From assembly GCF_005696555.1 (NCBI RefSeq), contig NZ_CP040005.1, positions 248,001 to 312,000 of the forward strand: a stretch of DNA of 64,000 nucleotides, given 5' to 3'. This document shows, piece after piece, positions 1,291 to 59,621 of the stretch (its first letter is position 1; each line of letters starts with the position of its first letter). The notes under the pieces are model-generated. The model worked only from the letters and a program-made list of their open reading frames with translations, searched no databases and was not told the origin of the DNA. The position numbers and the translations under genes were made by a program. The stretch comes from Actinomyces sp. oral taxon 171 str. F0337. GTDB lineage: Bacteria > Actinomycetota > Actinomycetes > Actinomycetales > Actinomycetaceae.

Positions 1291-2603
1291 GTGTCGACCA
1301 GGGACTCGTCCGCGACATGCGCGAGGAGGTCGCCGACCTCCTGGCCCAGCAGCGCCGTGACGACGCCACCTCCGGCATCCCCCCGATGTCCCCGGAGGAC
1401 GAGCGCCAGTTCGCCCGCGCCCTCATCGGCCGCGTGCTCGAGCAGCACGCCCGCACTGAGATCGCCGCCGGTCGCAGCCCGCTCAACGCCCAGGAGGAGG
1501 AAGAGGTCTCCCAGGGCATCCACGCGGCGCTCTTCGGTGTCGGCCGCCTCCAGCCCCTGCTGGACAATAAGGATGTCGAGAACATCGACATCAACGGCTA
1601 TGACAACGTCTTCATCCAGTACGCCGACGGCCGTGAGGAGCGCGGCGCCCCGGTGGCCGAGTCCGACGAGGAGCTCATCGAGCTCGTTCAGGTCCTCGGC
1701 TCCTACTCGGGCCTGGCCTCGCGCCCCTTCGACTCCGCCAACCCCCAGCTGGACCTGCGCCTGCCGGACGGCTCGCGCCTGTCCGCCGTCATGGAGGTCT
1801 GCTCGCGGCCCTCGATCTCGGTGCGTCGCGCCCGACTGGACCGGGTGGGCCTGGAGGAGCTGGTCCGGCTCGGCTCCCTGACCCCGCGGCTGGCCGCCTT
1901 CTGCTCGGCGGCCGTGCGCGCCCGCAAGAACATCATGATCGCCGGCGCCACGAACGCCGGGAAGACCACCTTCCTGCGCGCCCTGGCCAACGAGATCCCG
2001 CCCGAGGAGCGCCTCATCACCGTCGAGCGCGCCCTGGAGCTGGGCCTGGGCGAGTTCGCCGACCTGCACCCCAACGTCGTCGCCTTCGAGGAGCGCCTGC
2101 CCAACTCCGAGGGCTCCGGCGCGATCTCCATGGCGGACCTCGTGCGGCGCTCGCTGCGCATGAACCCCTCACGGGTCATCGTCGGTGAGGTCCTGGGTGA
2201 CGAGATCGTCACCATGCTCAACGCCATGAGCCAGGGCAACGACGGCTCGCTGTCCACCATCCACGCGAACTCCTCCTCCGAGGTGTTCAACCGCATCGCC
2301 ACCTACGCCATCCAGTCGGCCGAGCACCTGCCCCAGGACGCCACCAACCTTCTCATCGCCGGCGCCGTCGACTTCGTCATCTTCCTGACCCGGGAGAACC
2401 GCTTCTCCCAGGGCGGGGGGCTGCGCCGCTACGTCGCCTCCGTGCGTGAGGTCAACGGCGTCGACGGGCGGGTCCTGTCCAGTGAGGTCTTCGCCGACGA
2501 CGGGACCGGGACCGCCCAACCGGCCGCACCGATCTCCTGCGTCAACGACCTCATCAACGCCGGCTACGACCCGGCCGCCGCCTACCGGGGTGGTTACGCA
2601 TGA
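1287..2603 (+). CDS. tadA: TadA/CpaF-type secretion ATPase
   Basis: 438 aa hexameric traffic ATPase that powers Flp pilus assembly at the cytoplasmic membrane. The Walker A is GATNAGKTTF near residues 218-227. The Asp-box/Walker B region RVIVGEVLGDE is near 297, and the His-box STIHANS is near 322-328, all in the order of the GspE/VirB11/CpaF family. The N-terminal part (about 1-200) carries the usual NDR/N2 region (GRLQPLLDNKDVENIDINGY). Start ATG at 1287 overlaps the upstream stop (ATGA) and the stop overlaps TadB. Length is typical for CpaF of Actinobacteria. Confidence 0.93.
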   Translation: MSVDQGLVRDMREEVADLLAQQRRDDATSGIPPMSPEDERQFARALIGRVLEQHARTEIAAGRSPLNAQEEEEVSQGIHAALFGVGRLQPLLDNKDVENIDINGYDNVFIQYADGREERGAPVAESDEELIELVQVLGSYSGLASRPFDSANPQLDLRLPDGSRLSAVMEVCSRPSISVRRARLDRVGLEELVRLGSLTPRLAAFCSAAVRARKNIMIAGATNAGKTTFLRALANEIPPEERLITVERALELGLGEFADLHPNVVAFEERLPNSEGSGAISMADLVRRSLRMNPSRVIVGEVLGDEIVTMLNAMSQGNDGSLSTIHANSSSEVFNRIATYAIQSAEHLPQDATNLLIAGAVDFVIFLTRENRFSQGGGLRRYVASVREVNGVDGRVLSSEVFADDGTGTAQPAAPISCVNDLINAGYDPAAAYRGGYA

Positions 2604-32947: not shown

Positions 32948-35047
32948 CTAGATGAGCATGGCGACGACGAACCTCGTGAGAGCCGCCATGACCCAGGCCG
33001 TGACGAACATGTAGGTGTAGGCGATGATCGGCCACTTCCAGGTGCCGGTCTCGCGTCGCATCGCCGCAGCCGTGGCCATGCACTGCAGGGCGTAGACGAA
33101 GAACACCAGGATCGCCGCAATCGTGGCCGGGTTGAACAGCTGGTCGCCGGCCTTGTTGGTGAGCGTGTCCTTCTGGTACGTCATCGTGGCCAGGTGGGCG
33201 CCGGGGTCCTCGGGGTCCTCGGCGGCGGCGATCTGCCCCAGGGTGGCCACGAAGGTCTCGCGCGCCGCCAGCGATGACAGGATCGCCACGTTGATGCGCC
33301 ACTCGAAGCCCAGGGGCTCGAAGACCGGCTGCACCGTCTTGCCGATGGCGGCCGCCCAGGAGTTGTCCATCGTGTAGGAGGTCTTCTGAGCCTCCAGCAG
33401 CTTGCCGAGCTCCTCGGCATCGGTGATGACCTGCCCGTCATCCCCCTTGACGGTGGACGACGCCGGGTCCTCCGCCGCCGCGGACACGGCCGCGCACTCG
33501 GTGCTGGCGGAGCAGTGGGCGTCGAACTGCTCCTCGGAGCGCATCGGCACGTTGAGCAGCACCCACAGGACGAGCGTGGTCAGGGCGATGACGGTCCCGG
33601 CCTTCTTCACAAAGCCCTTGCAGGCGTCCCACACCATGATGAGGACCGTGCGCGGTCGAGGCAGCCGGTAAGGGGGCATCTCCATGTAGAAGGGCAGCAG
33701 CACCCCGCCTCGGTCAGTGAGACGCTTGACCACCCAGGCGGCCGCCATCGCGGAGACCGCTCCCAGCAGGTAGAGGGCGAACATGACGGTGCCACGTGCA
33801 CCCAGCGGCCCGATCTTCGCGTCGGCGGGCACCATGATGGAGGTGAGCAGGACGTAGACGGGTAGCCGCGCCGAGCAGGTCATGAGCGGGGCTGCCAGCA
33901 TCGTGGCCACCCGGTCCTTGGCACTGGGCAGCGTACGGGTCGCCATGATCCCGGGGATCGCACAGGCGAAGGACGACAGCAGGGCCACGAAGGCCCGCCC
34001 CTCCAGGCCGACCCGGCTCATGATCCTGTCCATGAGGAAGGCGGCGCGCGACATGTACCCCACGCCTTCGAGGAAGGCGATGATGAGGAACATGATGATG
34101 ATCTGGGGGACGAAGGTGAGCACCGAGCCCACACCCCCGATGAGCCCGTCACCCAGGAGCCCGGCCAGCAGCGGATGGGACTCGTCGAGCCAGCCGTGCA
34201 CCAGCTCCCCCAGGGCGCTGAACCCGCCCTCGACGGCGTCCTGGAGAGGGGCCGCCCAGGTGAAGATCGCCTGGAAGAAGACGTACATGATGGCGAAGAA
34301 CACCAGGGACCCCAGGACGGGGTTGAGCAGGACCCTGTCGACGGCGGTCGTGATGCGGTCCTGCTGCGGCGCCTGGTAGTCGGCGGCATCCAGGATGGAG
34401 TCGGCCCAGGAGGCCACCTCGCTGGGCGACGTCGGCGCCGGCAGCGGCGGGCGCCGCCAGTCGGAGATATCGGTCAGGTGCTCGCGCAGCTCGGGTATGC
34501 CGATGCCCCGGTTGCCGACCACCCGCACGGCCGGGATCCCCAGGGCCTGCCCGAGGGCCGCCACGTCCAGCCGCCCGGCGCGCCGCGTGAGCTCGTCGGT
34601 CATGGTGACCACCAGGCAGGTGGGCAGCTCCAGGGCGAGGGCCTCGGCGACGAAGTTCAGCCCTCGCCGTAGCGTCGTGGCGTCGACGACAACCACGAGG
34701 GCGTCGGGGACGGAGATGCTCTGCGAGGCGTCGGTGAGGACGTCGCGCACCACCTGCTCGTCGGGGCTGATCGGGTCCAGGGAGTAGGCGCCCGGCAGGT
34801 CCTCGATCGTCAGGCTGGTCTCGCCGATCCGGCAGGTCCCCAGCGACCGCGCCACGGTGACACCCGGGTAGTTGCCGGTCTTGGCGTGCAGACCGGTCAG
34901 GGCGTTGTAGATGGAGGTCTTGCCCGCGTTGGGGGCACCCGCCAGGGCGACGCGCAAGGCGCCGGACACCAGGGTCTTGGAGCTGGAGGACCCGCAGTGG
35001 CAGTCGGGGGCGCCGGCGACCTCGGAGGCTGCGCAGTGGTCGCTCAT
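32948..35047 (-). CDS. feoB: FeoB ferrous iron transporter, copy 1
   Basis: 699 aa from ATG 35047, overlapping the FeoA stop. An N-terminal extension has Cys residues (CHCGSSSSKTL). The G domain follows: G1 GAPNAGKTS near residue 36, G2 region GNYPGVTV, G3 DLPGAYS, G4 TMTDE (Thr where Asn is usual), then a helical GDI region. The membrane part has about 8-10 helices with two Gate-like domains (MSRAAFLMDRIMSRVGLEGR, FACAIPGIMATRTLP and VPMRSEEQFDAHC, SSLAARETFVATLG). It imports Fe2+. The loop between the Gate halves holds two further Cys. It is highly similar throughout to the second FeoB at 36293-38422. Confidence 0.95.
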   Translation of the reverse strand: MSDHCAASEVAGAPDCHCGSSSSKTLVSGALRVALAGAPNAGKTSIYNALTGLHAKTGNYPGVTVARSLGTCRIGETSLTIEDLPGAYSLDPISPDEQVVRDVLTDASQSISVPDALVVVVDATTLRRGLNFVAEALALELPTCLVVTMTDELTRRAGRLDVAALGQALGIPAVRVVGNRGIGIPELREHLTDISDWRRPPLPAPTSPSEVASWADSILDAADYQAPQQDRITTAVDRVLLNPVLGSLVFFAIMYVFFQAIFTWAAPLQDAVEGGFSALGELVHGWLDESHPLLAGLLGDGLIGGVGSVLTFVPQIIIMFLIIAFLEGVGYMSRAAFLMDRIMSRVGLEGRAFVALLSSFACAIPGIMATRTLPSAKDRVATMLAAPLMTCSARLPVYVLLTSIMVPADAKIGPLGARGTVMFALYLLGAVSAMAAAWVVKRLTDRGGVLLPFYMEMPPYRLPRPRTVLIMVWDACKGFVKKAGTVIALTTLVLWVLLNVPMRSEEQFDAHCSASTECAAVSAAAEDPASSTVKGDDGQVITDAEELGKLLEAQKTSYTMDNSWAAAIGKTVQPVFEPLGFEWRINVAILSSLAARETFVATLGQIAAAEDPEDPGAHLATMTYQKDTLTNKAGDQLFNPATIAAILVFFVYALQCMATAAAMRRETGTWKWPIIAYTYMFVTAWVMAALTRFVVAMLI

Positions 35048-35424
35048 GGGAGCTGCTCCTGACGCTCGGGGGTGTCGGCCTGCTCCTCGGCGAGAGGCCC
35101 GACGACGACGTCGGCCTCGGTGAGGACCTCGACCTGGACCATGCGGGCCTCCTGGCGGCGCAGGCACAGCTCGTAGTCGGCGACGCGGTAGACCACCGGA
35201 TCGCCCAGCGGGGCGCGGCGCAACGGCGTCACGGTCCGGCCGGGCACGAAGCCCAGGTTGCTCAGCCGCTTGACGATGGGGTCGTCGGTCGCGTCCTCCT
35301 GCAGGCCGATGACTCGGCCGCTGGTCCCCAGGCGCAGATCGGACAGGGACCTGTGCGCGGAAGGTGGGGTGCCGCCGGTGCCGGCCGGCGTCGTCGTGCC
35401 GTGGTGTGAGACTGCAGTCGCCAT
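35044..35424 (-). CDS. feoA: FeoA-domain protein, copy 1
   Basis: 126 aa from ATG 35424 (GAGGG upstream); an earlier in-frame Met at 35493 would include the promoter region. After an about 30-residue polar leader comes LSDLRLGTSGRVIGLQEDAT, then IVKRLSNLGFVPGRTVTPLR and DYELCLRRQEARMVQVE, an SH3-like FeoA domain that docks on FeoB and affects iron uptake. It overlaps feoB1 by four bases. Confidence 0.92.
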   Translation of the reverse strand: MATAVSHHGTTTPAGTGGTPPSAHRSLSDLRLGTSGRVIGLQEDATDDPIVKRLSNLGFVPGRTVTPLRRAPLGDPVVYRVADYELCLRRQEARMVQVEVLTEADVVVGPLAEEQADTPERQEQLP

Positions 35425-36292: not shown

Positions 36293-38422
36293 CTACATGA
36301 AGGCGGCCACGAGTGCGCGGCTGATCGCCGCCATGACCCAGGCCGTGACGAACATGTAGGAGAAGGCGATGATCGGCCACTTCCAGGTGCCGGTCTCGCG
36401 GCGCATCGCACCGGCCGTGGCCATGCACTGCAGGGCGTAGACGAAGAACACGAGGATCGCGATGACGGTGGCCGGGTTGAACAGCTGGTCACCCGCCTTG
36501 TTGGTCAGGGTGTCCTCCTGGTAGGTCATCGTGGCCAGGTGTGCGCCGGGGTCCTCGGGGTCCTCGGCGGCGGCGATCTGTCCCAGGGTGGCCACGAAGG
36601 TCTCGCGCGCCGCCAGCGAGGACAGGGTGGCGACGTTGATGCGCCAGTCGAAGCCCAGGGGCTCGAAGACCGGCTGGACCACCTTGCCCCCCTTGGCCGC
36701 CCAAGAGTTGTCCATCGTGTAGGAGGTCTTCTGCGCCTCCAGCAGCTTGCCGAGCTCCTCGGCGTCGGTGATGACCTGTCCGTCATCCCCCTTGACGGTG
36801 GACGACGCCGGGTTCTCCACGGCCGCCGAGATGGCGGCGCACTGCTTGTCGGAGGAGCAGAAGGCCTCGAACTGGGCGTCCGAGCGCATGGGGACGTTGA
36901 GCAGCACCCACAGGATGACAGTGGTCAGGGTGATGATCGTACCGGCCTTCTTCAGGAAGCCCTTGCAGGCGTCCCACACCATGATGAGGACCGTGCGCAC
37001 GCGGGGCATGCGGTAGGGCGGCATCTCCATGTAGAAGGGCAGCAGGATGTTGCCTCGGTCGGTGAGCTGCTTGACCACCCAGGCGGCCGCCATCGCGGAG
37101 ACCGCCCCCAGCAGGTAGAGGGCGAACATGACCACACCGCGCGTCCCGAAGGGGCCGACCTTGGCGTCGCCGTCGACAGTCAAGGAGATCATGATGACGT
37201 AGACGGGCAGGCGGGCCGAGCAGGTCATGAGGGGGGCGGCCAGCATCGTGGCCACCCGGTCCTTCGTGGAGGGCAGCGTGCGGGTCGCCATGATCCCGGG
37301 GATCGCGCAGGCCAGTGAGGACAGCAGGGCCACGAAGGCCCGCCCCTCAAGCCCGGCGATACTCATGACCTTGTCCATGAGGAAGGCGGCTCGGGACATG
37401 TACCCCACGCCCTCCAGGACGGCGATGATGAGGAACATGATGATGATCTGGGGGATGAAGGTGAGCACCGAGCCCACACCCCCGATGATTCCGTCTCCCA
37501 GGAGCCCGGCGATGAGCGGGTGGGACTCGTCGAGCCAGCCGTGCACCAACCCGCCCAGGTACCCGAAGCCGTTCTCGACGGCGTCCTGGAAGGGGGCCGC
37601 CCAGGTGAAGATCGCCTGGAAGAAGAGGAACATGATCGTGAAGAACACGATGGTTCCGGGGATGGGCCGCAGCAGGACCTTGTCAACCGCGGAGGTGATC
37701 TGGTCGTTCTGGGGCGCCTGGTAGTCCGCGGCGGCCAGCACCGAGTCGGCCCAGGAGGTGATCTCGTCGGGGTCGGTGGGCGGCGGCAGCGGGGTGCGCT
37801 GCCAGTTCTCGACCTGGGCGAGCTGGGCGCGCAGGTCGGGCATGCCGACGCCGCGGTGCCCGATGACTCGCACGGCGGGGATCCCCAGGGCCTGTCCGAG
37901 GGCGGCCACGTTGAGTCGGCCCGTACGGCGGCTGAGCTCGTCGGTCATGGTGACCACCAGGCAGGTGGGCAGCTCCAGGGCGAGGGCCTCGGCGATGAAG
38001 TTCATGCCGCGCTGCAGCGTCGTGGCGTCGACGACGATGACCAGGGCGTCCGGGGCGCTGACCGTGGTCGAGGTCCCGGTGAGGACGTCGTGGACGATCT
38101 GCTCGTCGGGGCTGATCGGGTCCAGGGAGTAGGCGCCCGGCAGGTCCTCGATCGTCAGGGTCTTGCCGCCGACCTTGCAGGTCCCCAGCGACCGCTGGAC
38201 GGTGACGCCGGGGTAGTTGCCGGTCTTGGCGTGCAGACCGGTCAGGGCGTTGTAGATGGAGGTCTTGCCGGCGTTGGGGGCACCCGCCAGGGCGACGCGC
38301 GGGGCGCCGGACACCAGGGTCTTGGAGCTGCCCGAGCCGCAGTGGCAGTCGGCGCCGTCATAGGGGTGCTCGCAGCGCTGCGACTGCCCGGTGGCGTGCT
38401 GTGTGATGTCGTGGGTGCTCAC
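36293..38422 (-). CDS. feoB: FeoB ferrous iron transporter, copy 2
   Basis: 709 aa; GTG at 38422 forms a GTGA overlap with the feoA2 stop. A Cys-bearing N-terminal extension (QRCEHPYDGADCHCGSGSSK) is followed by the same G domain and membrane layout as copy 1, including GAPNAGKTS, DLPGAYS and TMTDE and both Gate regions. The main differences are in the loop after the first Gate (VPMRSDAQFEAFCSSDKQCA) and the helical domain. The two copies look like an old tandem duplication retained with nifU between them. Possible separate roles (induction level, affinity) cannot be judged from sequence. Confidence 0.95.
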   Translation of the reverse strand: MSTHDITQHATGQSQRCEHPYDGADCHCGSGSSKTLVSGAPRVALAGAPNAGKTSIYNALTGLHAKTGNYPGVTVQRSLGTCKVGGKTLTIEDLPGAYSLDPISPDEQIVHDVLTGTSTTVSAPDALVIVVDATTLQRGMNFIAEALALELPTCLVVTMTDELSRRTGRLNVAALGQALGIPAVRVIGHRGVGMPDLRAQLAQVENWQRTPLPPPTDPDEITSWADSVLAAADYQAPQNDQITSAVDKVLLRPIPGTIVFFTIMFLFFQAIFTWAAPFQDAVENGFGYLGGLVHGWLDESHPLIAGLLGDGIIGGVGSVLTFIPQIIIMFLIIAVLEGVGYMSRAAFLMDKVMSIAGLEGRAFVALLSSLACAIPGIMATRTLPSTKDRVATMLAAPLMTCSARLPVYVIMISLTVDGDAKVGPFGTRGVVMFALYLLGAVSAMAAAWVVKQLTDRGNILLPFYMEMPPYRMPRVRTVLIMVWDACKGFLKKAGTIITLTTVILWVLLNVPMRSDAQFEAFCSSDKQCAAISAAVENPASSTVKGDDGQVITDAEELGKLLEAQKTSYTMDNSWAAKGGKVVQPVFEPLGFDWRINVATLSSLAARETFVATLGQIAAAEDPEDPGAHLATMTYQEDTLTNKAGDQLFNPATVIAILVFFVYALQCMATAGAMRRETGTWKWPIIAFSYMFVTAWVMAAISRALVAAFM

Positions 38423-38814
38423 AGAGTCTCTCCCGTGTTCGGTGCTGCGGGGTCGTCGGCCGCGTGCCGTCCGGCCGGCCTGGGCTGGAGGATGATGCGG
38501 TTCTCGGCCTCCACGGTGGTGACCTGGATGAGACGGGCCTCCTGGCGACGCAGGCACACCTCGTAGTCGGAGACGCGGTAGACCACCGGGTCTCCCAAGG
38601 GGGCGCGGCGCAGTGGCGTGGCGATCCGACCGGGGACGAAGCCCAGGTTGCGCAGGCGCTTGACGAGGACCCCGCCGATGCCGTCGTCGAGCAGGCCGGT
38701 GATGCGTCCGCTGGTGCCGGGGCTCAGGTCCGACAGTGCGAAGGTGGCAGTGCCCGGTTCGGGTAAGTATGTGGTGCCCTCGGGGGCGCGGTGTCGTGGA
38801 ACAGCAAAATCCAT
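38419..38814 (-). CDS. feoA: FeoA-domain protein, copy 2
   Basis: 131 aa from ATG 38814. The leader is short and polar. The FeoA core (LSDLSPGTSGRITGLLDDGI, LVKRLRNLGFVPGRIATPLR and DYEVCLRRQEARLIQVT) is close to copy 1, including the run RRAPLGDPVVYRV. The C-terminal tail differs and is Pro/Ala-rich. It is the first gene of feoA2-feoB2-nifU. Confidence 0.92.
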   Translation of the reverse strand: MDFAVPRHRAPEGTTYLPEPGTATFALSDLSPGTSGRITGLLDDGIGGVLVKRLRNLGFVPGRIATPLRRAPLGDPVVYRVSDYEVCLRRQEARLIQVTTVEAENRIILQPRPAGRHAADDPAAPNTGETL

Positions 38815-44339: not shown

Positions 44340-44888
44340 ATGCGCATTGAGGCCGTCGTCGGCGACATCACCACCGAGAAGGTCGACGCCATCGTCAACG
44401 CCGCCAACAGCACCCTCCTGGGCGGAGGGGGAGTCGACGGTGCCATCCACCGCGCCGCCGGCCCCAGCCTGCTCGACGCCTGCCAGAAGGTGCGGGACAC
44501 CGAGCTGCCCGACGGCCTGCCGGTCGGCCGCGCCGTGGCCACCCCTGGTTTCGACCTGCCCGCCGCCTGGGTCATCCACACCGTGGGTCCCAACCGCCAC
44601 GCCGGCGAGGACGATCCCGCCCTGCTGCGCGCCTGCTTCGACAGCTCCCTGGAGCTCGCTATCCAGCTCGGCTGCACCGGCATCGCCCTGCCGGCCGTCT
44701 CCGCAGGCGTCTACGGCTGGCCGATCGCCGAGGTCGCCGAGGTCGCCGTGGCCCGGGCCCGCGCCGTCGAGCAGCGCTCCCACACCGATCCCGACGCCGT
44801 CGGCCGCCTGGGGCTCATCCGCTTCGTTCTGTCCTCACAGACCAACCACGAGGCCTTCGCCCGCGAGCTCGCGCTCACCGAGGCCTGA
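44340..44888 (+). CDS. macro-domain ADP-ribose-derivative hydrolase (YmdB-like)
   Basis: 182 aa, no leader. MRIEAVVGDITTEKVDAIVN followed by AANSTLLGGGGVDGAIHRAA is the ligand-binding start of the MacroD/YmdB group. AWVIHTVGP and GCTGIALPAVSAGVYGWPI form the rest of the ADP-ribose pocket. Members remove ADP-ribose from proteins or hydrolyse O-acetyl-ADP-ribose. It stands between the tRNA and the VWA gene end; the 44061-44339 space shows no gene. Confidence 0.92.
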   Translation: MRIEAVVGDITTEKVDAIVNAANSTLLGGGGVDGAIHRAAGPSLLDACQKVRDTELPDGLPVGRAVATPGFDLPAAWVIHTVGPNRHAGEDDPALLRACFDSSLELAIQLGCTGIALPAVSAGVYGWPIAEVAEVAVARARAVEQRSHTDPDAVGRLGLIRFVLSSQTNHEAFARELALTEA

Positions 44889-45091: not shown

Positions 45092-46375
45092 TCAGGCGCC
45101 CTCGGCCTCCGCAGCCGCCTGCTCATCCGCCCACCGGCCCAGGTCCTCGCCGTGGATCGCGGCCGCCAGCAGGTCCGGGAAGGCGTCCGGCGTGCAACCG
45201 AAGGCCGGCACCCCCATCGCGGCCAGCCGCTTGGCGACGTCGTGGTTGTAGCTGGGGACGCCGTCATCACTCAGGGCGAGCAGTACGACGACCTGCACCC
45301 CGCTTCCCAGCAGCTCCCGCACCCGTCCCAGCATCTGCTTCGGGTCGGAGTCGTACAGGTCGCTGATGAGGATGAACACCGAGTCCGCCGGCCGCGTGAT
45401 CGTCTGCCGGCAGTACTCGATGGCGGGGGAGGTGTTCGTGCCGCCGCCGAGCTGGGTCCCGAAGATGACGTCGACGGGGTCCGACAGCAGCGGTGTCAGG
45501 TCTGTGACGGCGGTGTCATAGGCGACCAGCGTGGTGCGCAGTGAACGGATCGAGGCCATGACTGCCGCCATGATGGAGGCGTAGATGACTGAGGAGGACA
45601 TGGACCCGGACTGGTCCATGCAGATGGTGAACTCCTTCTGAATGCCCCGATGGCGCCTGCCGTGCCCGATGAGCCTCTCCGGGATGACCGTGCCCAGCTC
45701 CGGCACGTAGTTCTTGAGGTTCGCGGCAATGGTCCGGTTCCAGTCGATGTCGGCCGGCTGGGGCCGTGAGGTCCTCGTGGAGCGGTCCAGCGCGCCGCGC
45801 ACCGACTGCTGGAGCCGGTCGGCGATCCGCTCCTCCACCTCCTTGACGACCTTGTCGACGACCGTGCGCGCCGTCGCCTTGGCCTCCTGAGGAATCATCT
45901 CCGACAGGGTGGCCAACGTCGCCGCCAGGTGCACGTCGGGCTCCACGCCCTGGAGCACCTCGGGCTCCAGCAGGAGCGTCGTGAGCCCCAGGCGGTCAAT
46001 GGCATCGGTCTGCATGACCCGCACCACCCGCGAGGGGAAGTACCTGCGGATGTCCCCCAGCCAGCGGGCCACATGGGGCGCGGAGCCACCCAGGCCCCCG
46101 CGCTCCTTGTCCTGCGGGTCGACGTCGTACAGGTCCGCCAGTGCCGCGTCCATCGCCCGGTGTCCCTCCGACAGCGAGGTGGGGTAGCCACGCGCGTCCA
46201 CGCCCAGGGCCAGGCGCCAGCGCTGCTCAATCGTGGTGGGCTCGACGTCGTCGGCCCGGTCGGCCCGGTCGGCCCGGTCGGCCCGGTCGGCCCGGTCGGC
46301 CGGGCCCGCAGGGACTGCCTGGCCGGCGTGCTGCTCCTGCTGGTTCGCGTCGTCGGTGCGCTCGTGCGTGGTCAT
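45092..46375 (-). CDS. VWA-domain protein of a MoxR-type system (CoxE-like)
   Basis: 427 aa. The N-terminus contains five near-perfect R-A-D repeats (residues about 27-42) encoded by a 9-bp tandem repeat. A helical region (VDPQDKERGGLGGSAPHVAR and WLGDIRRYFPSRVVRVMQTD) follows. The VWA domain starts near residue 245 with the MIDAS motif MDQSGSMSSSVIYASIMAAV, GGGTNTSPAIEYC (the Thr position) and FILISDLYDSD. Last gene of the five-gene operon; it overlaps the DUF5682-like stop by four bases. VWA proteins pair with MoxR ATPases, probably presenting a metal-dependent partner-binding surface. Confidence 0.9.
   Translation of the reverse strand: MTTHERTDDANQQEQHAGQAVPAGPADRADRADRADRADRADDVEPTTIEQRWRLALGVDARGYPTSLSEGHRAMDAALADLYDVDPQDKERGGLGGSAPHVARWLGDIRRYFPSRVVRVMQTDAIDRLGLTTLLLEPEVLQGVEPDVHLAATLATLSEMIPQEAKATARTVVDKVVKEVEERIADRLQQSVRGALDRSTRTSRPQPADIDWNRTIAANLKNYVPELGTVIPERLIGHGRRHRGIQKEFTICMDQSGSMSSSVIYASIMAAVMASIRSLRTTLVAYDTAVTDLTPLLSDPVDVIFGTQLGGGTNTSPAIEYCRQTITRPADSVFILISDLYDSDPKQMLGRVRELLGSGVQVVVLLALSDDGVPSYNHDVAKRLAAMGVPAFGCTPDAFPDLLAAAIHGEDLGRWADEQAAAEAEGA
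46253..46307. repeat. 9-bp tandem repeat inside the VWA gene
   Basis: Five to six consecutive copies of GGCCCGGTC encode R-A-D repeats. Nine-base units cannot shift the frame, so copy-number change would only lengthen the linker. Confidence 0.9.
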
Positions 46376-48831
46376 CGGGTACCTCCCAGGATCATGCTCA
46401 CGGTGTCCAGAACCGCCTCGACGTCGTCGAAGGCCTCCTCAACCGGGCCGCTCCCGTCCGGGGCGGGGGAACCGAGGTCCCGGATCTGCCGGGCCAGGTC
46501 CGTCTTCTGGGGGCTCGGCCACTGGCCGAAGGCTCGTCGCAGTGCGGGCAGGACGTCGACGAAGGCCTGGTCCCCGATGCGCGCCAGCCACTCGTTGAGC
46601 ACCTCGAGCAGGGTGTTGTCATAGCTGAGCAGGAGGATGTCTCCCGCGAGGAAGCCCTCGATCCACTCGGCCTGATCCTCGGGCTGCGTGCCCTGCGACA
46701 GTGCCCGGGACAGCCTCAGGGCGGCGTCGTCGCGGGCCAGCTCCCCGGCGTCCAGGAGCATTCGGGTGATGCGTCCGGCCAGCAGGCCCGGCAGGCTCCG
46801 GGTGGCCAGCGCGGAGCGCAGCGCACCCTTCCACAGCGTCGCGGCCCGCTCGTCCAGAAGACCGATGACTCCCTGGACATCGTCGATCGTCGTACGCAGC
46901 GTGCGGGCCACCTGGGCGTCCACGTTCGCGGCCGCCGCGGACATCCCCGCGCACCCGCGCACCAGGACGGCGCGGGTCACCGCCTCCAGGCTGGAGGTGT
47001 CCGTGCCGCGCACGTCCCCGTAGCGCTGGGAGCGGGCCAGGGCAGGCACCGAGCCCAGCAGCCGGACGATGTCCATCTCGCGGGCCGCCTGCTCGTCGAG
47101 GATCCCCAGCAGCTCGGGCACGACCTCGGACAGGCCGGCCGTCAGCGCCTTCTCCACCGAACCGGTCACCTGCGGCAGGGAGTCGGTGGCGCCCAGCAGG
47201 GCGTTCCCGGCGGCGGAGGCCACCGTGGTGCCGAAGGCCGCGGCCTCCACCACCTGCACGGACATCTCCGGGTCCCACTCGAGCTCCCAGACCTCCTTGA
47301 AGGTGCCGCTCGAGGCCACCCGCTGCCGCCTGCCCCAGGTGATCCCCAGAATCTCCAGGCGTCGCAGCAGCTGGGACTTGGCCAGGTCCCGGGGCTTGCG
47401 CAGGTCCAGGGAGAGTGTCCTGGGAGTCGCCGTGAAGGCCATGCGCAGGCTCTTGGCGGTCGAGCGCAGATCGGCGTCCAGGGGGACCATGGGGACGCCG
47501 TCGGGCACGCTGCCGAGCGCCTCGCCGATGAGGACCTCGCGGGTCGCGGCGGCGGCCCGCACCGTACTGCCATCGCACATGACTGACAGGACCGCCTCGT
47601 TCAGCTCGTCGAGGCCGGCCATGGGGCGCCCGCGCAGCGCGGCGAGGCTCTGGGCCAGTCGCGCCGCCTCAATGATGTGGGCCGAGGAGACCGGCAGGTC
47701 CTGACGGCGCAGCGACGCGGCCACCTGCGTCAGCCAGCGCACGACCGGCCGGTCCGGTGCGGTGAAGAGCAGGTGGTACCAGCCCGGCGACTCCACCCCG
47801 GCGCTGTAACCGCTGCCCCCGGCCAGGCGCTGGTGCGTCCACGGCACCCAGGTCAGCGACGTCCTCGCCTTCGCCATGCCCTTGAGGCGGGCGTTGTCCT
47901 GCGCGACCTTCGGCGGCCTGCCGGCCAGCGCCGGGGCGTGCCACGCCCCGCACACGACGGCGATCCGCTCGTGGCCCGCCCTTCTGGCCGCCCGGAGAAC
48001 CTTGCGCATATGCGCCTCGCGGCGCAGCGTGGCCTCGTCGGTCTCCGGGGAGGCCTCCCGCAGGAGCCCGATCGCCTCGGTCAGTGCGTCGAAGGGGTCG
48101 CCCTCCATACGCAGCTCGACGACGTCCTCCCACCAGGCCTCCGGGTCCTCGTAGCCGGCCAGGCGCGCCAGCTCGGCGATCGGGTCGGTCCGCACCGGCT
48201 GGGCCGTGCCCCGGGTCGCGGTGTCCGCGGTGTCCGCGGTGTCTGCGGTGTCTGCGGTCTCTGACCCACTATCCGCCGGGCCGTCCGTCCCCTCCGAGCC
48301 GCTCGAGCCGCTCGGGTCTTCCGAGCCGGCCGTATCGTCGATGGGCCCCTCGGTCTCCACCTCGCCCTCGGCCCCCGCCTCGGCTTCAGCCTCCGACCGG
48401 GCCCGCTCCCGCTCGGCCTTCCGCGCGGCCAGGACCGCGGCCGCCGGCAGATCCATGAAATGGGCCTGCGCCCCGTGCGCCACCGCCCAGGACAGCGCCT
48501 GCCACTCGGGGGAGAAGACGGCCATCGGCCAGAAGGAGGCCTGCGAGGGATCGGTGTTGTCCCAGGCGAGCAGGGCCACCGGCGGCTCCAGTCCCCGGCC
48601 CGCCCACTCGATGAGGCCATCGGCGTCCGCCGGCCCCTCGATGAGGACGCAGTCGGGCCGGTAGTCCTCCAGCGCTGCGGCCAGGGCCCGTGCCGAGCCC
48701 GGACCGTGGTGACGGACCCCCAGGACCCGCACAGGCGGGCGCGGGTCCCCGGCCCTGGTTGCAGTGCCGCCTGCGGACTCGGCCTCGGCTCCGACGTCGG
48801 CCCCGGAGTCGAGCTCTGCGTCGACGGTCAC
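46372..48831 (-). CDS. DUF5682-like protein (TraB/erythromycin-esterase-like fold suspected)
   Basis: 819 aa. The N-terminal core VRVLGVRHHGPGSARALAAA is followed by DCVLIEGPADADGLIEWAG, ALLAWD and FMDLPAAAV. Later IAVVCGAWHAPAL closes this domain. The R-H-H-G-P-G-S motif and 'C-G-A-W-H' are features I associate with DUF5682. A disordered acidic segment (about 150-215) contains repeated T-A-D units encoded by a short tandem repeat. The C-terminal 450 residues are helical (TFKEVWELEWDPEMSVQVVE). It lies between MoxR and VWA, overlapping both by four bases, so a complex of the three is likely. Conserved His residues could bind metal. Confidence 0.75.
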   Translation of the reverse strand: MTVDAELDSGADVGAEAESAGGTATRAGDPRPPVRVLGVRHHGPGSARALAAALEDYRPDCVLIEGPADADGLIEWAGRGLEPPVALLAWDNTDPSQASFWPMAVFSPEWQALSWAVAHGAQAHFMDLPAAAVLAARKAERERARSEAEAEAGAEGEVETEGPIDDTAGSEDPSGSSGSEGTDGPADSGSETADTADTADTADTATRGTAQPVRTDPIAELARLAGYEDPEAWWEDVVELRMEGDPFDALTEAIGLLREASPETDEATLRREAHMRKVLRAARRAGHERIAVVCGAWHAPALAGRPPKVAQDNARLKGMAKARTSLTWVPWTHQRLAGGSGYSAGVESPGWYHLLFTAPDRPVVRWLTQVAASLRRQDLPVSSAHIIEAARLAQSLAALRGRPMAGLDELNEAVLSVMCDGSTVRAAAATREVLIGEALGSVPDGVPMVPLDADLRSTAKSLRMAFTATPRTLSLDLRKPRDLAKSQLLRRLEILGITWGRRQRVASSGTFKEVWELEWDPEMSVQVVEAAAFGTTVASAAGNALLGATDSLPQVTGSVEKALTAGLSEVVPELLGILDEQAAREMDIVRLLGSVPALARSQRYGDVRGTDTSSLEAVTRAVLVRGCAGMSAAAANVDAQVARTLRTTIDDVQGVIGLLDERAATLWKGALRSALATRSLPGLLAGRITRMLLDAGELARDDAALRLSRALSQGTQPEDQAEWIEGFLAGDILLLSYDNTLLEVLNEWLARIGDQAFVDVLPALRRAFGQWPSPQKTDLARQIRDLGSPAPDGSGPVEEAFDDVEAVLDTVSMILGGTR
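48223..48265. repeat. 9-bp tandem repeat inside the DUF5682-like gene
   Basis: Four to five imperfect copies of GTGTC(C/T)GCG encode the T-A-D repeats near residues 193-204. Repeat unit length equals that in the adjacent VWA gene but the sequence differs. Confidence 0.85.
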
Positions 48832-49949
48832 TGCCCCACCTCATGGCAGGCGCGGTAGAAGTCGGACCAGTCGCGGCGCTCGCGCACCACGGCCTCCAGG
48901 TACTCCGACCACACCACCTGATCGGCCACCGGGTCGCTCACCACCGCCCCGAGGATCCCGGCGGCCACGTCCGAGGGGCGCAGGACGCCGTCGCCGAAGT
49001 GGGCGCTCATGGCCAGACCGTTGGTGACCACCGAGATTGCCTCCGCCGTGGACAGGGTGCCCGACGGCGACTTCAGGCTCGTGCGTCCGTCCTCCGTCAC
49101 GCCCTGGCGCAGCTCGCGGAAGACGGTGACCACGCGACGGATCTCCTCCAGGGCGCCCTCCGCGGCAGGCAGCTGGAGCGCCGAGCCGAGGTCCTCCACG
49201 CGGCGGGCCACGATGCTCACCTCCTCCTCCACCGAGGCCGGCAGCGGCAGCACCACCGTGTTGAAACGGCGCCGCAGCGCCGCCGAGAGGTCGTTGACGC
49301 CGCGGTCGCGGTCGTTGGCGGTGGCGATGAGGTTGAAGCCCCCGTGCGCCTGCACCTCGGTGCCCAGCTCCGGCACCGGGAGGGTCTTCTCGCTGAGCAC
49401 CGTGATGAGGGCGTCCTGAACGTCGGAGGGCATACGGGTGAGCTCCTCGACCCGGGCGATCCGGCCCGTCCCCATGGCCGTCATGATGGGGGAGGGGACG
49501 AGTGCCGCCTGCGAGGGCCCCTCGGCCAGGAGCCGGGCGTAGTTCCAGCCGTAGCGCACCGCCTCCTCCGAGGTGCCCGCCGTGCCCTGCACCAGGAGCG
49601 TGGAGGTGCCGCAGATCGCCGCGGCCAGGTGCTCGCTCACCCAGGACTTCGCCGTTCCCGGCACCCCCAGAAGGAGCAGGGCCCGGTCGGTGGCCAGGGT
49701 CGCCACGGCCACCTCGATGAGACGCCGGTTGCCGACGTACTTCGGGGTGATGACGGTGCCGTCCTCCAGCGTGCCGCCCATGAGATAGGTGACCACCGCC
49801 CAGGGTGAGAGTCGCCAGCTCGCCGGCCGGGTGCGCTCGTCAAGACGAGCCAGGGCGGCGAGCTCCTCGGCGTAGCGCTGCTCGGCGTGCGGGCGCAGCA
49901 GGGGCGCGTTGTCGGTGCTGGTCTGGTCATTGGTCTGGGTGCTGGTCAC
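48828..49949 (-). CDS. MoxR-type AAA+ ATPase
   Basis: 373 aa from ATG 49949. Walker A LLLGVPGTAKSW near residues 93-104, Walker B-like region RIARVEELTRMPSDVQDALI near 165, sensor FNLIATANDRDRG near 210, arginine finger AALRRRFNTVVLP near 230, then the lid. The Walker B acidic pair is E-E rather than D-E, as in some MoxR proteins. MoxR ATPases act as chaperone-like remodelers with VWA partners. It lies between DUF5691-like (78 bp gap upstream) and DUF5682-like (4-base overlap downstream). Confidence 0.92.
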   Translation of the reverse strand: MTSTQTNDQTSTDNAPLLRPHAEQRYAEELAALARLDERTRPASWRLSPWAVVTYLMGGTLEDGTVITPKYVGNRRLIEVAVATLATDRALLLLGVPGTAKSWVSEHLAAAICGTSTLLVQGTAGTSEEAVRYGWNYARLLAEGPSQAALVPSPIMTAMGTGRIARVEELTRMPSDVQDALITVLSEKTLPVPELGTEVQAHGGFNLIATANDRDRGVNDLSAALRRRFNTVVLPLPASVEEEVSIVARRVEDLGSALQLPAAEGALEEIRRVVTVFRELRQGVTEDGRTSLKSPSGTLSTAEAISVVTNGLAMSAHFGDGVLRPSDVAAGILGAVVSDPVADQVVWSEYLEAVVRERRDWSDFYRACHEVGQ

Positions 49950-50027
49950 GGGAGCTCCTCGGTGGCTGACGGGCGGGTGGTCGACGGGCGGTCGGGAAGA
50001 AACAGGGCGTGGTGCGTACGAAGGCGG

Positions 50028-51566
50028 CTAGGACGGAGGAGTGCGCAGAGCCTCCAGCTGGAGTCTCAGACGCAGCCCCTCGACGGCGTCGGTCAGGAAG
50101 GCCGGCGCCGAGTCGGGACGGGAGACCCCCTCCATCAGGGCCAGTGCCTCGGGCAGGACCGTGGCGTGGCAGGAGACCGGCAGCCTGGTGGTCTCCTGGG
50201 TGGTCCAGTAGCCGATGTCCTCCGGGCGGTGCGAGTCGAGGGCGGACCGGAGGAAGGAGACCATGCGGCGCGAGTGCTCCGCGGAGTAGGGGCACGGCCA
50301 GTAGCGGCGCATGTCGGTGAAACGATCGAGATCGCCCCGCTTGAAGGCGTCGGCCGTGCAGGCCTCGATGAGGGCGCCGCTGCCACGACGGTCCGCGGTG
50401 AACAGGGCGCTGCTCAGATCCAGCGGCTTGCCCTCGAAGGTCACCTCGGCCTCGAGGAGCTGACCGGCGGACAGCCCGATGAGAGCCGGCCAGCGGTTGA
50501 TCGGGACGCGTCCGACCACCTCCTCCAGCAGAGCGGGAGGGTATCCGGCAGCCGCTCTCCTGGCGGCCGGTGGGCCGACGTCGACCCGGGACGGGTCCCC
50601 GGTGCCACGCTCCCCGTACTCGTCACGCAGGACCTCGTCGGTCACCTCGATGGGGCGGCAGTCCACCCGGGTGGTGCGCAGAAACCGCTTGGTGACGCTC
50701 ATGTGCGAGGCGGCCAGGGCCTCGGCGCGCTGGACCAGGCCGGATCCGGGCAGATGGAGGAGCACCTGAGCCGCCGCCTGGCGCACCCCTCCGGAGCGGT
50801 CCGTGACGGCCATCTCCAGCAGAGGCAGGTCCGCCTCCCCCAGGCCGGTGGCCAGCGCCTCGACGATCCCCTCGCGGGCCTCGGCCCTCTCCTTCTTCCA
50901 CGACGCCACCATGAGAGTCCGTGCGGCGGCCGGGTCCTGGGCGCGCAGCCGCCTGAAGTAGGCGAGCCGCTGGGCGGTGGTGCCCAGTCTCCACCCTGAG
51001 TCGTCCAAGGAGTCGTCCAAGGAGTCGCCGCCGGGCAGCGACACCAGGGGCTCGACCCGCTTGCCCCACACCGGATGCTCGCGGAGCACCGCTGCGGCGC
51101 GTTCGTCGATGACGCCGAGGACCGCGTCGCGCTCCTCGTGCCTGTAGGCGGTCTCATTGAGGACGCGCACGAGGAGCGGGGCCGGCAGCCTCCAGCCGCG
51201 CTCGGCCACCACCCCCAGTGCCGTGGCCAGCAGCTGCTGCTGAGGCTTGCTGGCCAGGATCTGCTCGAGGAGGGGGCGCAGGGCCTCCGGTGCCAGGGGG
51301 CGCGACGACGTCGGCCAACCGGTGTCCCGGGCGGCGGAGGAGGGGACCGAGGGGATCGTGGCGCGGTGCACCGCACCGTAGGCGGCGGCCGCGTCCAGGA
51401 GCGCATCGGTGCCGTCCGCCGCGTCGCCCGCACCTCCAGCGCCCTCTGCCTTCTCCTGCCGGGCAGGAAGGGCCTCGGCGACGGCTCTGGGGAGGGCCTC
51501 CGAGGAGAAGGGCCTCGCACGTGTTCCTATGACGGCGGCTTGGGCCAGCGGGGACAGGTCACTCAC
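50028..51566 (-). CDS. DUF5691-like helical-repeat protein
   Basis: 512 aa, no signal or membrane segment. N-terminus MSDLSPLAQAAVIGTRARPF is followed by a helical, HEAT-like region: REGIVEALATGLGEADLPLL, EMAVTDRSGGVRQAAAQVLL and HLPGSGLVQRAEALAA. The C-terminal part is compact (DLDRFTDMRRYWPCPYSAEH). Position between a SWIM gene and MoxR is the context I know for DUF5691. A scaffold role is plausible from HEAT-like repeats; no catalytic motif. The start overlaps the SWIM stop by four bases. Confidence 0.7.
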   Translation of the reverse strand: MSDLSPLAQAAVIGTRARPFSSEALPRAVAEALPARQEKAEGAGGAGDAADGTDALLDAAAAYGAVHRATIPSVPSSAARDTGWPTSSRPLAPEALRPLLEQILASKPQQQLLATALGVVAERGWRLPAPLLVRVLNETAYRHEERDAVLGVIDERAAAVLREHPVWGKRVEPLVSLPGGDSLDDSLDDSGWRLGTTAQRLAYFRRLRAQDPAAARTLMVASWKKERAEAREGIVEALATGLGEADLPLLEMAVTDRSGGVRQAAAQVLLHLPGSGLVQRAEALAASHMSVTKRFLRTTRVDCRPIEVTDEVLRDEYGERGTGDPSRVDVGPPAARRAAAGYPPALLEEVVGRVPINRWPALIGLSAGQLLEAEVTFEGKPLDLSSALFTADRRGSGALIEACTADAFKRGDLDRFTDMRRYWPCPYSAEHSRRMVSFLRSALDSHRPEDIGYWTTQETTRLPVSCHATVLPEALALMEGVSRPDSAPAFLTDAVEGLRLRLQLEALRTPPS

Positions 51567-52906
51567 AGGGCACGCACCTCTCCATTGGTGACAACACTCA
51601 GAGCCCGCAGGCCGGCGGGCGACAGCTCGCCCGCAACCGTGACCTCGTCACTGTCGGCCAGAAGCGGCAGGACCCATCGGGCGTTGTCGGGCACGATGAG
51701 CGGCAGCGCCCCGTCCGCGTCCCCGAGTGCCGGCTCGCCGTTGCCGAGCAGACGGAACCGCCCTGAGACCAGCACCGGTACGGCTTCCACCCACGGGTCC
51801 GCGGCGACAGCACGCCTCCAGGCCTCCTGAGCGGATGCCGTCCCCGAGGGCTCGGGCACCCAGCCGGTCACGGGCTGCGAGGGCTGCTCATCGGACAGGG
51901 CCACGCGCAGCTGGCCGCGCCCCGGGTAGAAGTGCGCGACGGCGTCGAATCGGGTCCCGGGAACGACAGTGGTGGAGAAACCGCCGGAGACGGGGGCGAA
52001 GGCGAGGATGAGCGCCCAGCGCCGGGTGTTCGTGCCGTAGAGCCACAGGCGGCGCTCGGCCAGCCTGCCCTCCACAGTGTCCCGGCCGGCCACGACCACC
52101 CAGGTGTCACCGATGCCGGGCGAGGCCAGGACGTCCTCGGTGCGTGCGGTGATCCCCACGTGGGAGCGGACGGTGGCCCCCAGGTCGTCGGGCAGCTGCT
52201 CACGCCGGGTCCAGGCCCGAATGAGCAGGTGGAGCAGTCCGAGCTCGTCGAGCAGCCGCTCGGGCCAGTCGGGGGAGGAGTCCGTCAGCCGTGACAGGGC
52301 CGTCAGGTGCCGGGCGACTCCGGGGGCCTGGGCATCGACCATGCGGGAGGCGAAGCCCGTCAGCTGCTTGGGGCGCTGGGCCGAGCCGTTGGCCAGCCCC
52401 TGGCGGAGCTGATCGGCCAGCCACCGGTCCAGGTCCGCCAGCCCCTCGGTGATGCGCCCTTCGCGGGCGCGGGCACGAGCCGCGGCGCTCTTTGCGGAGG
52501 CGGCTGCCCGGGCTGGGTCATCGGGCTGGTCCGCGGCCTCCTGCCGCGCGGACTTCTGCTGGGCTCGCTTGGCCCGGCCCTCCAACCACTCGGCGGCGAA
52601 GGCTGCCGGCTCCCCGCCGGCCACCTGGCCCCGGCTCCACAGGTGCAGCAGGCCGACGGCGTGCTTGCAGGGGAACTTGCGGCTGGGGCAGGAGCACTTG
52701 AAGGCCGGGCCGGACAGGTCCACGCACACCCGGTACGGCTTCTTGCCCGACCCTGAGGCGCTTCCCCACACCAGCGTCCCGTGAACGCCGGCGTCCGACC
52801 ACGTGGCGGGCGAGGCCAGCTTGAGGCCGGCCGTGGCGACCTGCTTGTCCGGTGCCAGCGCGGTGACCTGCTCGGCGCTCCAGGGCGCGATGGTCGGTGA
52901 GCTCAT
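51563..52906 (-). CDS. SWIM zinc-finger protein, first gene of the MoxR/VWA operon
   Basis: 447 aa from ATG 52906 (MSSPTIAPWSAEQVTALAPD); the frame is open to 53026 but that part overlaps the divergent SDR promoter region. The SWIM finger is at residues about 72-86: FKCSCPSRKFPCKHAVGLLH, i.e. C-x-C-x(n)-C-x-H, a zinc site known to bind DNA or protein. The rest is mainly helical with a beta-rich C-terminal half (WVVVAGRDTVEGRLAERRLW). It opens the five-gene operon and may supply target recognition. Confidence 0.88.
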   Translation of the reverse strand: MSSPTIAPWSAEQVTALAPDKQVATAGLKLASPATWSDAGVHGTLVWGSASGSGKKPYRVCVDLSGPAFKCSCPSRKFPCKHAVGLLHLWSRGQVAGGEPAAFAAEWLEGRAKRAQQKSARQEAADQPDDPARAAASAKSAAARARAREGRITEGLADLDRWLADQLRQGLANGSAQRPKQLTGFASRMVDAQAPGVARHLTALSRLTDSSPDWPERLLDELGLLHLLIRAWTRREQLPDDLGATVRSHVGITARTEDVLASPGIGDTWVVVAGRDTVEGRLAERRLWLYGTNTRRWALILAFAPVSGGFSTTVVPGTRFDAVAHFYPGRGQLRVALSDEQPSQPVTGWVPEPSGTASAQEAWRRAVAADPWVEAVPVLVSGRFRLLGNGEPALGDADGALPLIVPDNARWVLPLLADSDEVTVAGELSPAGLRALSVVTNGEVRAL

Positions 52907-58634: not shown

Positions 58635-59312
58635 TCAGCGGGCGCGACGGCGCAGGCGGTCGACGTCGAGCAGCGTGACGGCCCGGCCCTCCAGGCGGAT
58701 CCAGCCGCGGGAGACGAACTCGGCCAGCGACTTGTTGACCGTCTCGCGCGAGGCGCCCACCAGCTGGGCGAGCTCCTCCTGAGTGAGGTCGTGGGGGACG
58801 TGGACGCCGTCGTCGGTGGGCGAGCCGAAGCGGTCGGCCAGGTCCAGCAGGGCCTTGGCCACGCGGCCGGGCACGTCGGAGAAGACGAGGTCCGCCAGCG
58901 CGGTGTTCGTGCGGCGCAGGCGCTGGGCCAGGGCGCGCAGCATGTCCTTGGCCAGCCGCGGGTGGGACTCCACGAAGGTCATGAGCTGGTTGTGGTCCAG
59001 CGTCAGGAGCTCGGTGGGGGCCACGGCGGTGGCGGTGGTGGAGCGCGGTCCCGGGTCGAACAGGGTCAGCTCGCCGACGATCTCGCCGGGGCCGAGCACC
59101 GCGAGCAGGTTCTCACGGCCATCGGCGCTGGCGTGGCCGAGCTTCACCTTCCCGGAGAGGAGAATGTAGAGGCGGTCGCCTGAGTCGCCCTCGTTGAAGA
59201 GGGTCTCGCCACGGCGCAGAGTCGTCTGCGTCATCATGGCGCGCAGTTCCTCCTGCTCCTCCGGGCTCAGGCCCTCGAAGAGCGGGATCCTGGAGATAAT
59301 GCTGTCTTCCAC
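58635..59312 (-). CDS. crp: Crp/Fnr-family regulator (GlxR/Crp-like)
   Basis: 225 aa from GTG 59312, chosen because AGGAGG lies six bases upstream; an in-frame ATG at 59351 would include the ribosome site. Cyclic-nucleotide-binding domain: LYILLSGKVKLGHASADGRE and GEIVGELTLFDPGPRSTTAT, with the Gly-Glu and Arg-Ser-Thr residues that contact cAMP. The C-terminal winged helix (DLTQEELAQLVGASRETVNK) has the R-E-T recognition helix for TGTGA-type sites. It is a global regulator in Actinobacteria. Divergent from nth; the 59313-59621 space shows no other gene. Confidence 0.93.
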   Translation of the reverse strand: MEDSIISRIPLFEGLSPEEQEELRAMMTQTTLRRGETLFNEGDSGDRLYILLSGKVKLGHASADGRENLLAVLGPGEIVGELTLFDPGPRSTTATAVAPTELLTLDHNQLMTFVESHPRLAKDMLRALAQRLRRTNTALADLVFSDVPGRVAKALLDLADRFGSPTDDGVHVPHDLTQEELAQLVGASRETVNKSLAEFVSRGWIRLEGRAVTLLDVDRLRRRAR

Positions 59313-59621
59313 GGAGATCCTCCTGGTGGTTAGGGGGCTGGCATCCCGCATGCGGGAGCCCTCGGGTCTATCCTGCCACGGCTTGTGACCTGTGGCACGC
59401 CGTCGAGCATTGTAGCCTCCGTGTGTTGCAGGTCAAAGAGAAGTGAGCAAAATCGGGTGCGTCGTGTGACACTGTCCAATCCGCGAGGTTGCGGGGCGGT
59501 GGTGGGATCGACTGCAATGGCGATCTCTGGAGGAGGGCCCGGCCTCAGCCGGGCCGAGGCTCGAACGAGGGCTCCGGTGGCGCTGGTGGTGCTGCCGACG
59601 AGATCGCGGAGAGAGGACACC

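Follow-up and report, generated by a model that had tools for sequence, protein, structure and literature searches.

A DUF5691-bearing operon of the YehL MoxR class in Actinomyces, with a probable remote TraB/ChaN-like domain in its DUF5682 protein

Five genes on the minus strand

We analyzed a 64,000-nucleotide stretch of the Actinomyces sp. oral taxon 171 str. F0337 genome (hereafter the window; contig NZ_CP040005.1, positions 248,001 to 312,000). Its minus strand carries, between 45092 and 52906, five intact open reading frames (ORFs) in the order SWIM, DUF5691, MoxR, DUF5682 and VWA_CoxE, and among MoxR systems this operon represents a branch of the YehL class that carries DUF5691. A preliminary description of the sequence had proposed a five-gene operon here, and all five ORFs were found in place with the expected Pfam families:

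51563..52906, minus strand: SWIM zinc-finger protein, 447 aa; Pfam PF04434, 22.4 bits (cut-off 19.6)
52661..52696, minus strand: SWIM motif CSCPSRKFPCKH, residues 71-82, with C71, C73, C80 and H82
51563-51566, minus strand: SWIM/DUF5691 junction, 4-bp overlap GTGA
50028..51566, minus strand: DUF5691 protein, predicted HEAT-type solenoid, 512 aa; Pfam PF18944, 207.5 bits
49950..50027, minus strand: DUF5691/MoxR gap of 78 bp, the dividing line of two suggested modules
48828..49949, minus strand: MoxR-type AAA+ ATPase of the YehL class, 373 aa; AAA_5 PF07728, 130.8 bits
49644..49667, minus strand: MoxR Walker A GVPGTAKS, residues 95-102, intact
48828-48831, minus strand: MoxR/DUF5682 junction, 4-bp overlap GTGA
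46372..48831, minus strand: DUF5682 protein, 819 aa; Pfam PF18934, 793.3 bits, E 2.9e-238
47704..48741, minus strand: DUF5682 N-domain, residues ~31-376, alpha/beta, with a TraB/ChaN-like motif set
46390..47208, minus strand: DUF5682 C-terminal alpha-solenoid, residues ~542-814, from the model and fold searches
46372-46375, minus strand: DUF5682/VWA junction, 4-bp overlap ATGA
45092..46375, minus strand: CoxE-like VWA protein, 427 aa; VWA_CoxE PF05762, 155.1 bits
45602..45616, minus strand: metal-ion-dependent adhesion site (MIDAS) DQSGS of VWA, D254-S258, intact

The SWIM gene starts with the ATG at 52906; the listed ORF begins further out, with a GTG at 53026. Codon-position GC is coding-like in all five genes (GC at third positions 0.88-0.94), and an NCBIfam scan of the five proteins gave no match above cut-off. 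Adjacent genes overlap by 4 bp at three of the four junctions, the 78-bp gap being the fourth, much as first described; fixed stoichiometry had been read from these overlaps, which instead suggest translational coupling between the genes. The gene set is not a chance arrangement, because it was found again in 66 of 80 related loci (see below).

Relation to the E. coli yehLMPQ operon

In E. coli MG1655, yehL, yehM, yehP and yehQ stand side by side in one direction and correspond to MoxR, DUF5682, VWA and SWIM (YehM is a DUF5682 protein in RefSeq). The window's MoxR is 38.7% identical to YehL (E 5.6e-72), and its DUF5682 protein is 26% identical to YehM. Both operons include a SWIM gene, which comes last in E. 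coli, whereas SWIM and DUF5691 come first in the window. The E. coli control genome gave no DUF5691 match and has nearby a DUF4132 gene, yehI, which lies upstream of yehL and with yehH adjoins the operon; the window operon is without a DUF4132/YehI neighbor, which does not define the class, and has DUF5691 instead. We regard it as a variant of the YehL class because DUF5691 replaces DUF4132/YehI. In a MoxR tree of 20 rows, the window type formed one clade (100/100) inside a YehL-like group that excluded RavA and one AAA_3-type MoxR of the same genome. These two were the only outgroups (RavA was cut to 320 residues, two further rows from the genome were left out, and the L052 row is the last 400 residues of its ORF), and since both outgroups sit on very long branches, we rely on nothing beyond the grouping. 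A second copy in the same genome, at ~2.132-2.143 Mb (region 2131000-2150000; L041, 1367-12200), comprises MoxR, DUF5682, VWA, a 592-aa protein without a Pfam match, and DUF4132; with this DUF4132-type copy, both branches coexist there.

A survey (PMC3893208, available in part) counts YehL among seven MoxR subfamilies, and of the two MoxR proteins in E. coli K-12 one is YehL, yet it has been little studied. The literature searched, which lacks most subscription journals, gave no function for DUF5682 or DUF5691 and, among sources available in part, no functional paper on YehL; yehL, yehM, yehP and yehQ were named together only in genome papers, judged by title. The suggestion that the gene set is undescribed is only partly right, as the YehL subfamily to which its MoxR belongs already has a name (PMC3893208, available in part).

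Other MoxR-VWA systems share some of this logic. RavA-ViaA is likewise a MoxR and VWA chaperone, but RavA belongs to another MoxR subfamily, and its first 320 residues gave only a 35-column match to the window's MoxR (E 0.20). NorQ-NorD and CoxD-CoxE also combine an AAA+ MoxR with a VWA protein, and the window's VWA is of the CoxE family; the window operon differs in that no client enzyme was seen in it and in having three further conserved proteins.

Conservation and wiring of the gene set

Related loci were collected by a profile search of genome contigs with an alignment of 13 DUF5682 proteins (A1), the window's included. The search gave at least 587 loci, and because only the best-scoring 80 were retained, close relatives are over-represented. 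Phylum names were taken from record titles and recall, and the profiles used to annotate the loci were built from stricter seeds after antisense ORFs and fused rows had entered the first versions. All five genes are present in 66 of the 80 loci, or 65 on a cautious count, as L091 is doubtful: it appears complete and fused only because a contig end cuts its first ORF. An antisense 'SWIM' ORF in L074, L080 and L129 is read as an artefact. Complete loci span Actinomycetota, Cyanobacteria, Bacteroidota, Planctomycetota and Gammaproteobacteria. Among all 80 loci, the one closest to the window is that of Actinomyces israelii (best segment 60%), and others come from Streptomyces, Nocardia, Gordonia, Cellulomonas, Leptolyngbya, Niastella, Thiofilum and metagenome-assembled genomes of Isosphaeraceae and Obscuribacterales. 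A Deinococcus taeanensis plasmid record, annotated independently, has the same order with one small ORF between MoxR and DUF5682. Conservation of the neighborhood, proposed as a check when the operon was first described, thus turns up a fixed and widely kept gene set.

Contig ends close to the operon cut 9 of the 14 incomplete loci. Partners are missing across at least 4.9 kb upstream in L084, L097 and L114, while L087 and L117 have no VWA within ~10 kb downstream and their contigs are cut upstream. A figure of 58/58 for loci with 20 kb of sequence omits these five, and we therefore quote 66/80. At genome level, DUF5682 lies above cut-off in 19 of 246 genomes of the window's phylum and DUF5691 in 17 of the 246 (20 at E 0.001), all 17 within DUF5682's 19. 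DUF5682 also lies above cut-off in four further phyla (7/198, 11/249, 7/117 and 13/119 genomes), each phylum count including the genome around which the draw was centered, and in 0/5 other genomes of the window's order.

The arrangement of the genes varies in an instructive manner. Thirty-three loci have the five genes separate and co-directional, like the window. SWIM and DUF5691 are fused as a single ORF in 10 of the 80 loci (the fusion in L119 was confirmed by Pfam), and this pair is opposite in strand to MoxR-DUF5682 in 23 (22 plus one whose contig stops before VWA). DUF5682 is fused to VWA in L052 and L043 of a sister branch (Pfam), and MoxR, DUF5682 and VWA are adjacent in that order in the window, in E. 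coli and in 72 of the 80 loci. The natural fusions suggest two modules, SWIM-DUF5691 and DUF5682-VWA. A third branch (L053, L054 and L055) has VWA_CoxE and MoxR, followed by an ORF that matches DUF5682 weakly (97-105 bits).

The DUF5682 N-domain and the TIKI superfamily

The AlphaFold model of DUF5682 (predicted local distance difference test, pLDDT, 85.8; predicted template modelling score, pTM, 0.82) opens with an alpha/beta N-domain and ends in an alpha-solenoid, with a small part between them. The N-domain carries the motif set R40-H41-H42, E65, E109, D127, E239, R258, R271-E272-x2-M275 and G295-x2-H298; CGAWH, initially described as late in the protein, occupies residues 294-298 of 819, in the N-terminal third. 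H41, E65, E109, D127, E239, R258, R271 and H298 are invariant in 90/90 rows of an N-domain alignment thinned to below 70% identity (the window gene entered twice, leaving 89 distinct sequences), and R40 (88/90), H42 (86/90) and E272 (89/90) are nearly so. The model places H41, E65, D127 and H298 in or just past strands, and R271 within a helix. Being both polar and invariant, these eight residues look catalytic or metal-binding. A low-complexity repeat insert at residues ~150-215 is absent or shorter in the 12 other A1 sequences.

The series GxRHH, E, D, RExxM and GxxH resembles the TraB family in order and spacing, and its general form, GxxH...E...E/D...R-N/E-x2-M...GxxH, is shared with the TIKI superfamily (TraB/PrgY/GumN, ChaN and Ere). 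Invariant positions in an 18-row TraB alignment include G16, H19, E45, E145, R217, N218, G240 and H243. A GxxH followed by a Glu 24-28 residues on occurs in DUF5682 (H41-E65, 24 residues) and in TraB (H19-E45); for Bcr135, the accessible part of its source gives H85-E113. The R-N/D-x2-M helix with a closing GxxH is likewise present in DUF5682, as R271-E272-x2-M275 and G295-x2-H298, and profile comparison pairs the RExxM...GAWH of DUF5682 in register with the RNxxM...GAGH of TraB. The DUF5682-TraB profile score of 31.7 compares with a mean of 12.0 for 150 column shuffles (standard deviation 2.2, maximum 20.4), with 15.2-18.9 for five control comparisons, and with 32.9 for the yardstick pair TraB-ChaN. 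DUF5682 also matches ChaN (24 rows) in register, scoring 24.3 over 98 columns (maximum of 150 shuffles 23.8); these first 98 columns cover GVRHH, E65 and the D127 strand. The strand and helix order of the modelled N-domain is compatible with a parallel beta-sheet core, whole-model fold searches being taken up by the solenoid. From these comparisons, the DUF5682 N-domain is probably a remote TraB/ChaN-like domain, not a filed TIKI member. DUF5682 differs from the superfamily in its C-terminal alpha-solenoid and in having no in-register match to Ere.

Erythromycin esterase (PF05139) was rejected as the nearest relative of DUF5682, its match being out of register. By the same method, TraB and erythromycin esterase gave no match (13.9), and ChaN and erythromycin esterase scored 36.0. 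The DUF5682 profile had 0 matches among PDB chain sequences up to E 10.

A proposed remodelling machine

The other four proteins retain the residues typical of their families. C71, C73, C80 and H82 of the SWIM motif are at least 95% conserved in a 71-row alignment, as are the Walker A columns of MoxR in 75 rows, V96 and S102 excepted; T313 and D339 of VWA are conserved alongside the MIDAS (75-row alignment). In a model of the fused SWIM-DUF5691 homologue L119 (pLDDT 92.7), residues 459-903 form helical repeats matching HEAT/ARM chains, and for this modelled homologue the guess that DUF5691 is of HEAT type is supported. Among PDB chains, sequence comparison gave Midasin and NorQ as solved relatives of MoxR (E 9.7e-7 for NorQ), whereas VWA had 0 matches among PDB chain sequences up to E 0.01. 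A low-complexity insert with short repeats lies at VWA residues ~25-45, and TAD/ADR units occur across the DUF5682 and VWA inserts.

Our best explanation for the whole, which we hold at slightly less than even confidence, is an ATP-driven MoxR-VWA remodelling machine that would act together with, or upon, a TraB/TIKI-like hydrolase and have SWIM-DUF5691 as its recognition scaffold. It retains the original idea of a MoxR-VWA remodelling machine and joins to it the HEAT-type DUF5691 and the fixed gene set. A mechanical precedent is NorQD, in which, as the available part of the report states, the MoxR-type hexamer holds a finger of the VWA protein in its pore, and the NorD linker is remodelled at the expense of ATP, which leads to metal insertion (PMC13036017). 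By analogy, the VWA protein would engage the MoxR hexamer as NorD does NorQ, and the hexamer would spend ATP on remodelling a target. Positioned on or next to the VWA subunit, DUF5682 would be a TraB/TIKI-like hydrolase (a peptidase or esterase, metal-dependent or not), with the motor opening its site, loading metal into it or feeding it substrate. DUF5691 and the SWIM zinc finger may bind and present the target, and the machine would likely remodel or process cellular proteins, for housekeeping or in response to stress. A more specific version of this proposal, that DUF5682 is an unrecognized, widespread TIKI/TraB hydrolase branch within an AAA+ machine, gated or fed by MoxR-VWA and with a SWIM-HEAT adaptor choosing the target, is tentative and we consider it somewhat unlikely. 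If true, an ATP-dependent processing machine that assembles motor-peptidase logic from unrelated parts would be present in most E. coli strains. What is new here is the two-module wiring from fusions and the eight invariant residues of the DUF5682 N-domain; this wiring and the predicted active site in DUF5682/YehM make a few direct tests feasible in K-12.

Several results weigh against this proposal. The TraB/ChaN relation is a remote one. The margin of the ChaN match over its shuffles is thin, and the score was 16.9 with a ChaN alignment containing antisense rows; smaller alignments gave a weak TraB/ChaN link (E 0.014 and 0.0089). Erythromycin esterase (9 rows) scored 21.7 out of register, above 100 shuffles (maximum 20.9), and beating shuffles alone therefore proves little. 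When 49 DUF5682 proteins were scanned against Pfam with E values of up to 10 admitted, no TIKI-superfamily family stood among the 25 of 37 families listed, and Foldseek and VIA-align searches with the whole DUF5682 model matched only the solenoid, with no TIKI-fold chain among the matches listed. The 50 matches listed were all taken by helical repeats, so that these fold searches say nothing about the N-domain. The Glu of GExH found in the RRSP/ChaN/Ere branch is replaced by V or I in DUF5682. TraB likewise lacks it, with T or S at that place; GExH (2His/2Glu) is the signature of the Ere/ChaN/RRSP branch in the part of its source available, and because the Glu is missing we do not file DUF5682 in that branch. 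As to the gene set, DUF5682 occurs without the other four genes, as far as the contig sequence reaches, in 4 of the 80 loci (two of the four are cut just upstream), and L084 has only VWA beside DUF5682 with 4.9 kb upstream covered. Among flanking ORFs, no client gene is conserved next to the operon across lineages; the flanking clusters came from greedy ORF choice in GC-rich DNA, in which antisense ORFs are possible. The four loci (L087, L097, L114 and L117), from cyanobacteria and Saprospiraceae, encode full-length DUF5682 with no MoxR, VWA, SWIM or DUF5691 in the locus sequence covered.

The same parts could instead form a metal- or cofactor-insertion chaperone like NorQD or CoxDE, acting on an enzyme encoded elsewhere, possibly a molybdoenzyme, with DUF5682 as delivery subunit or metallated client. 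Such a role would fit a VWA of the CoxE family, a MoxR with NorQ as a solved relative, and conserved His, Glu and Asp residues of DUF5682 that could bind metal. The E. coli operon adjoins yehH and yehI, and molR presumably belongs to the same yeh cluster. At genome position 47.3, molR is listed as a molybdenum utilization, regulatory protein in the accessible part of PMC4245954, and NorQD, as noted above, inserts metal by remodelling the NorD linker. We nevertheless consider insertion unlikely, if only a shade more so than the hydrolase version above, as it leaves the SWIM-DUF5691 module and the whole TraB-like motif set unexplained. Moreover, client genes are conserved beside the MoxR-VWA pair in the nor, cox and gvp clusters, and no metalloenzyme gene was seen conserved beside this operon.

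Less probable still is a chaperone of protein complexes like RavA-ViaA, in which remodelling would be driven by ATP, DUF5682 would hydrolyze nothing, and its N-domain would serve as a binding fold. MoxR proteins are described as chaperone-like (PMC3893208, available in part), the TraB/ChaN link is remote, and PMT is a TIKI-superfamily member without catalytic residues (PMC6254334, available in part). The eight polar residues that are invariant in 89 distinct sequences look catalytic or metal-binding, however, and this speaks against a mere binding fold.

The defense question and neighboring genes

MoxR-vWA pairs have been proposed to act in conflict systems (PMC7159879, available in part), and the operon had accordingly been put forward as a candidate for defense. 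An anti-phage or biological-conflict system would suit the patchy species distribution of DUF5682 across five phyla and its absence from the other genomes of the same order (0/5 with a copy), as well as the TIR-domain gene 5.7 kb upstream and the window's neighbors, which were not found beside the A. israelii copy (ten neighbor proteins had no match in that locus and two matches across all 80 loci). Most of the evidence points elsewhere, and we judge such a system improbable. The gene set is fixed and has no variable effector. In PADLOC, DUF5691 alone of the five proteins had a match, a weak one to HEAT (E 1.3e-4, 91 residues), and 9 of 10 neighboring genes had none. Of 5426 E. coli genomes, 5162 (95%) have the operon at 80% of its length or more, and 5320 of 5322 E. 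coli operon places are chromosomal. DUF5682 was found in 1 of 50,697 phage records, in 31 of 72,556 plasmid records and in no confirmed IMG/VR contig. The most widely shared flanking ORF cluster is common to 27 loci, by title those of Streptomyces and relatives, which favors vertical descent there. PADLOC, the phage, plasmid and viral-contig scans, and the prevalence in E. coli thus lend the defense idea no support. The sole phage-record match (MT835988.1, L255; 29.5% identity) is an unverified 14-kb 'Bacteriophage sp.' fecal scaffold that may be bacterial DNA.

Kaur et al. 2020 describe, in the available text, four MoxR-vWA ternary conflict systems, which likewise combine the MoxR-vWA pair with further components (PMC7159879). 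This assignment was rejected for the window operon, in which Pfam found no VMAP, iSTAND, FtsH or beta-propeller; it also differs in having no variable effector and a bpMoxR score of 24.2 bits, below the cut-off of 27. In the Pfam scan, VMAP-M8 was touched by 1 of 49 DUF5682 proteins (E 0.11). The main text of Kaur et al. makes no mention of SWIM, EreA, TraB or yehL (PMC7159879).

The TIR-domain protein (58638-59351, minus strand) matches Pycsar-type TIR effectors in PADLOC (PycTIR, E 3.7e-14), and an ORF 29% identical to it lies near the Nocardiopsis locus L067. Convergent with the VWA gene is a Macro-domain gene (44340-44888, plus strand), which had no match among the ORFs of the 80 loci (blastp, E 1e-8). 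Two genes close to each other on the minus strand (32951-35167 and 36296-38557) encode FeoB-type ferrous iron transporters. A T2SSE-type ATPase (1287-2600, plus strand) and a 1552-aa FtsK/SpoIIIE protein (8849-13504, plus strand) belong to a same-strand run that resembles a secretion cluster.

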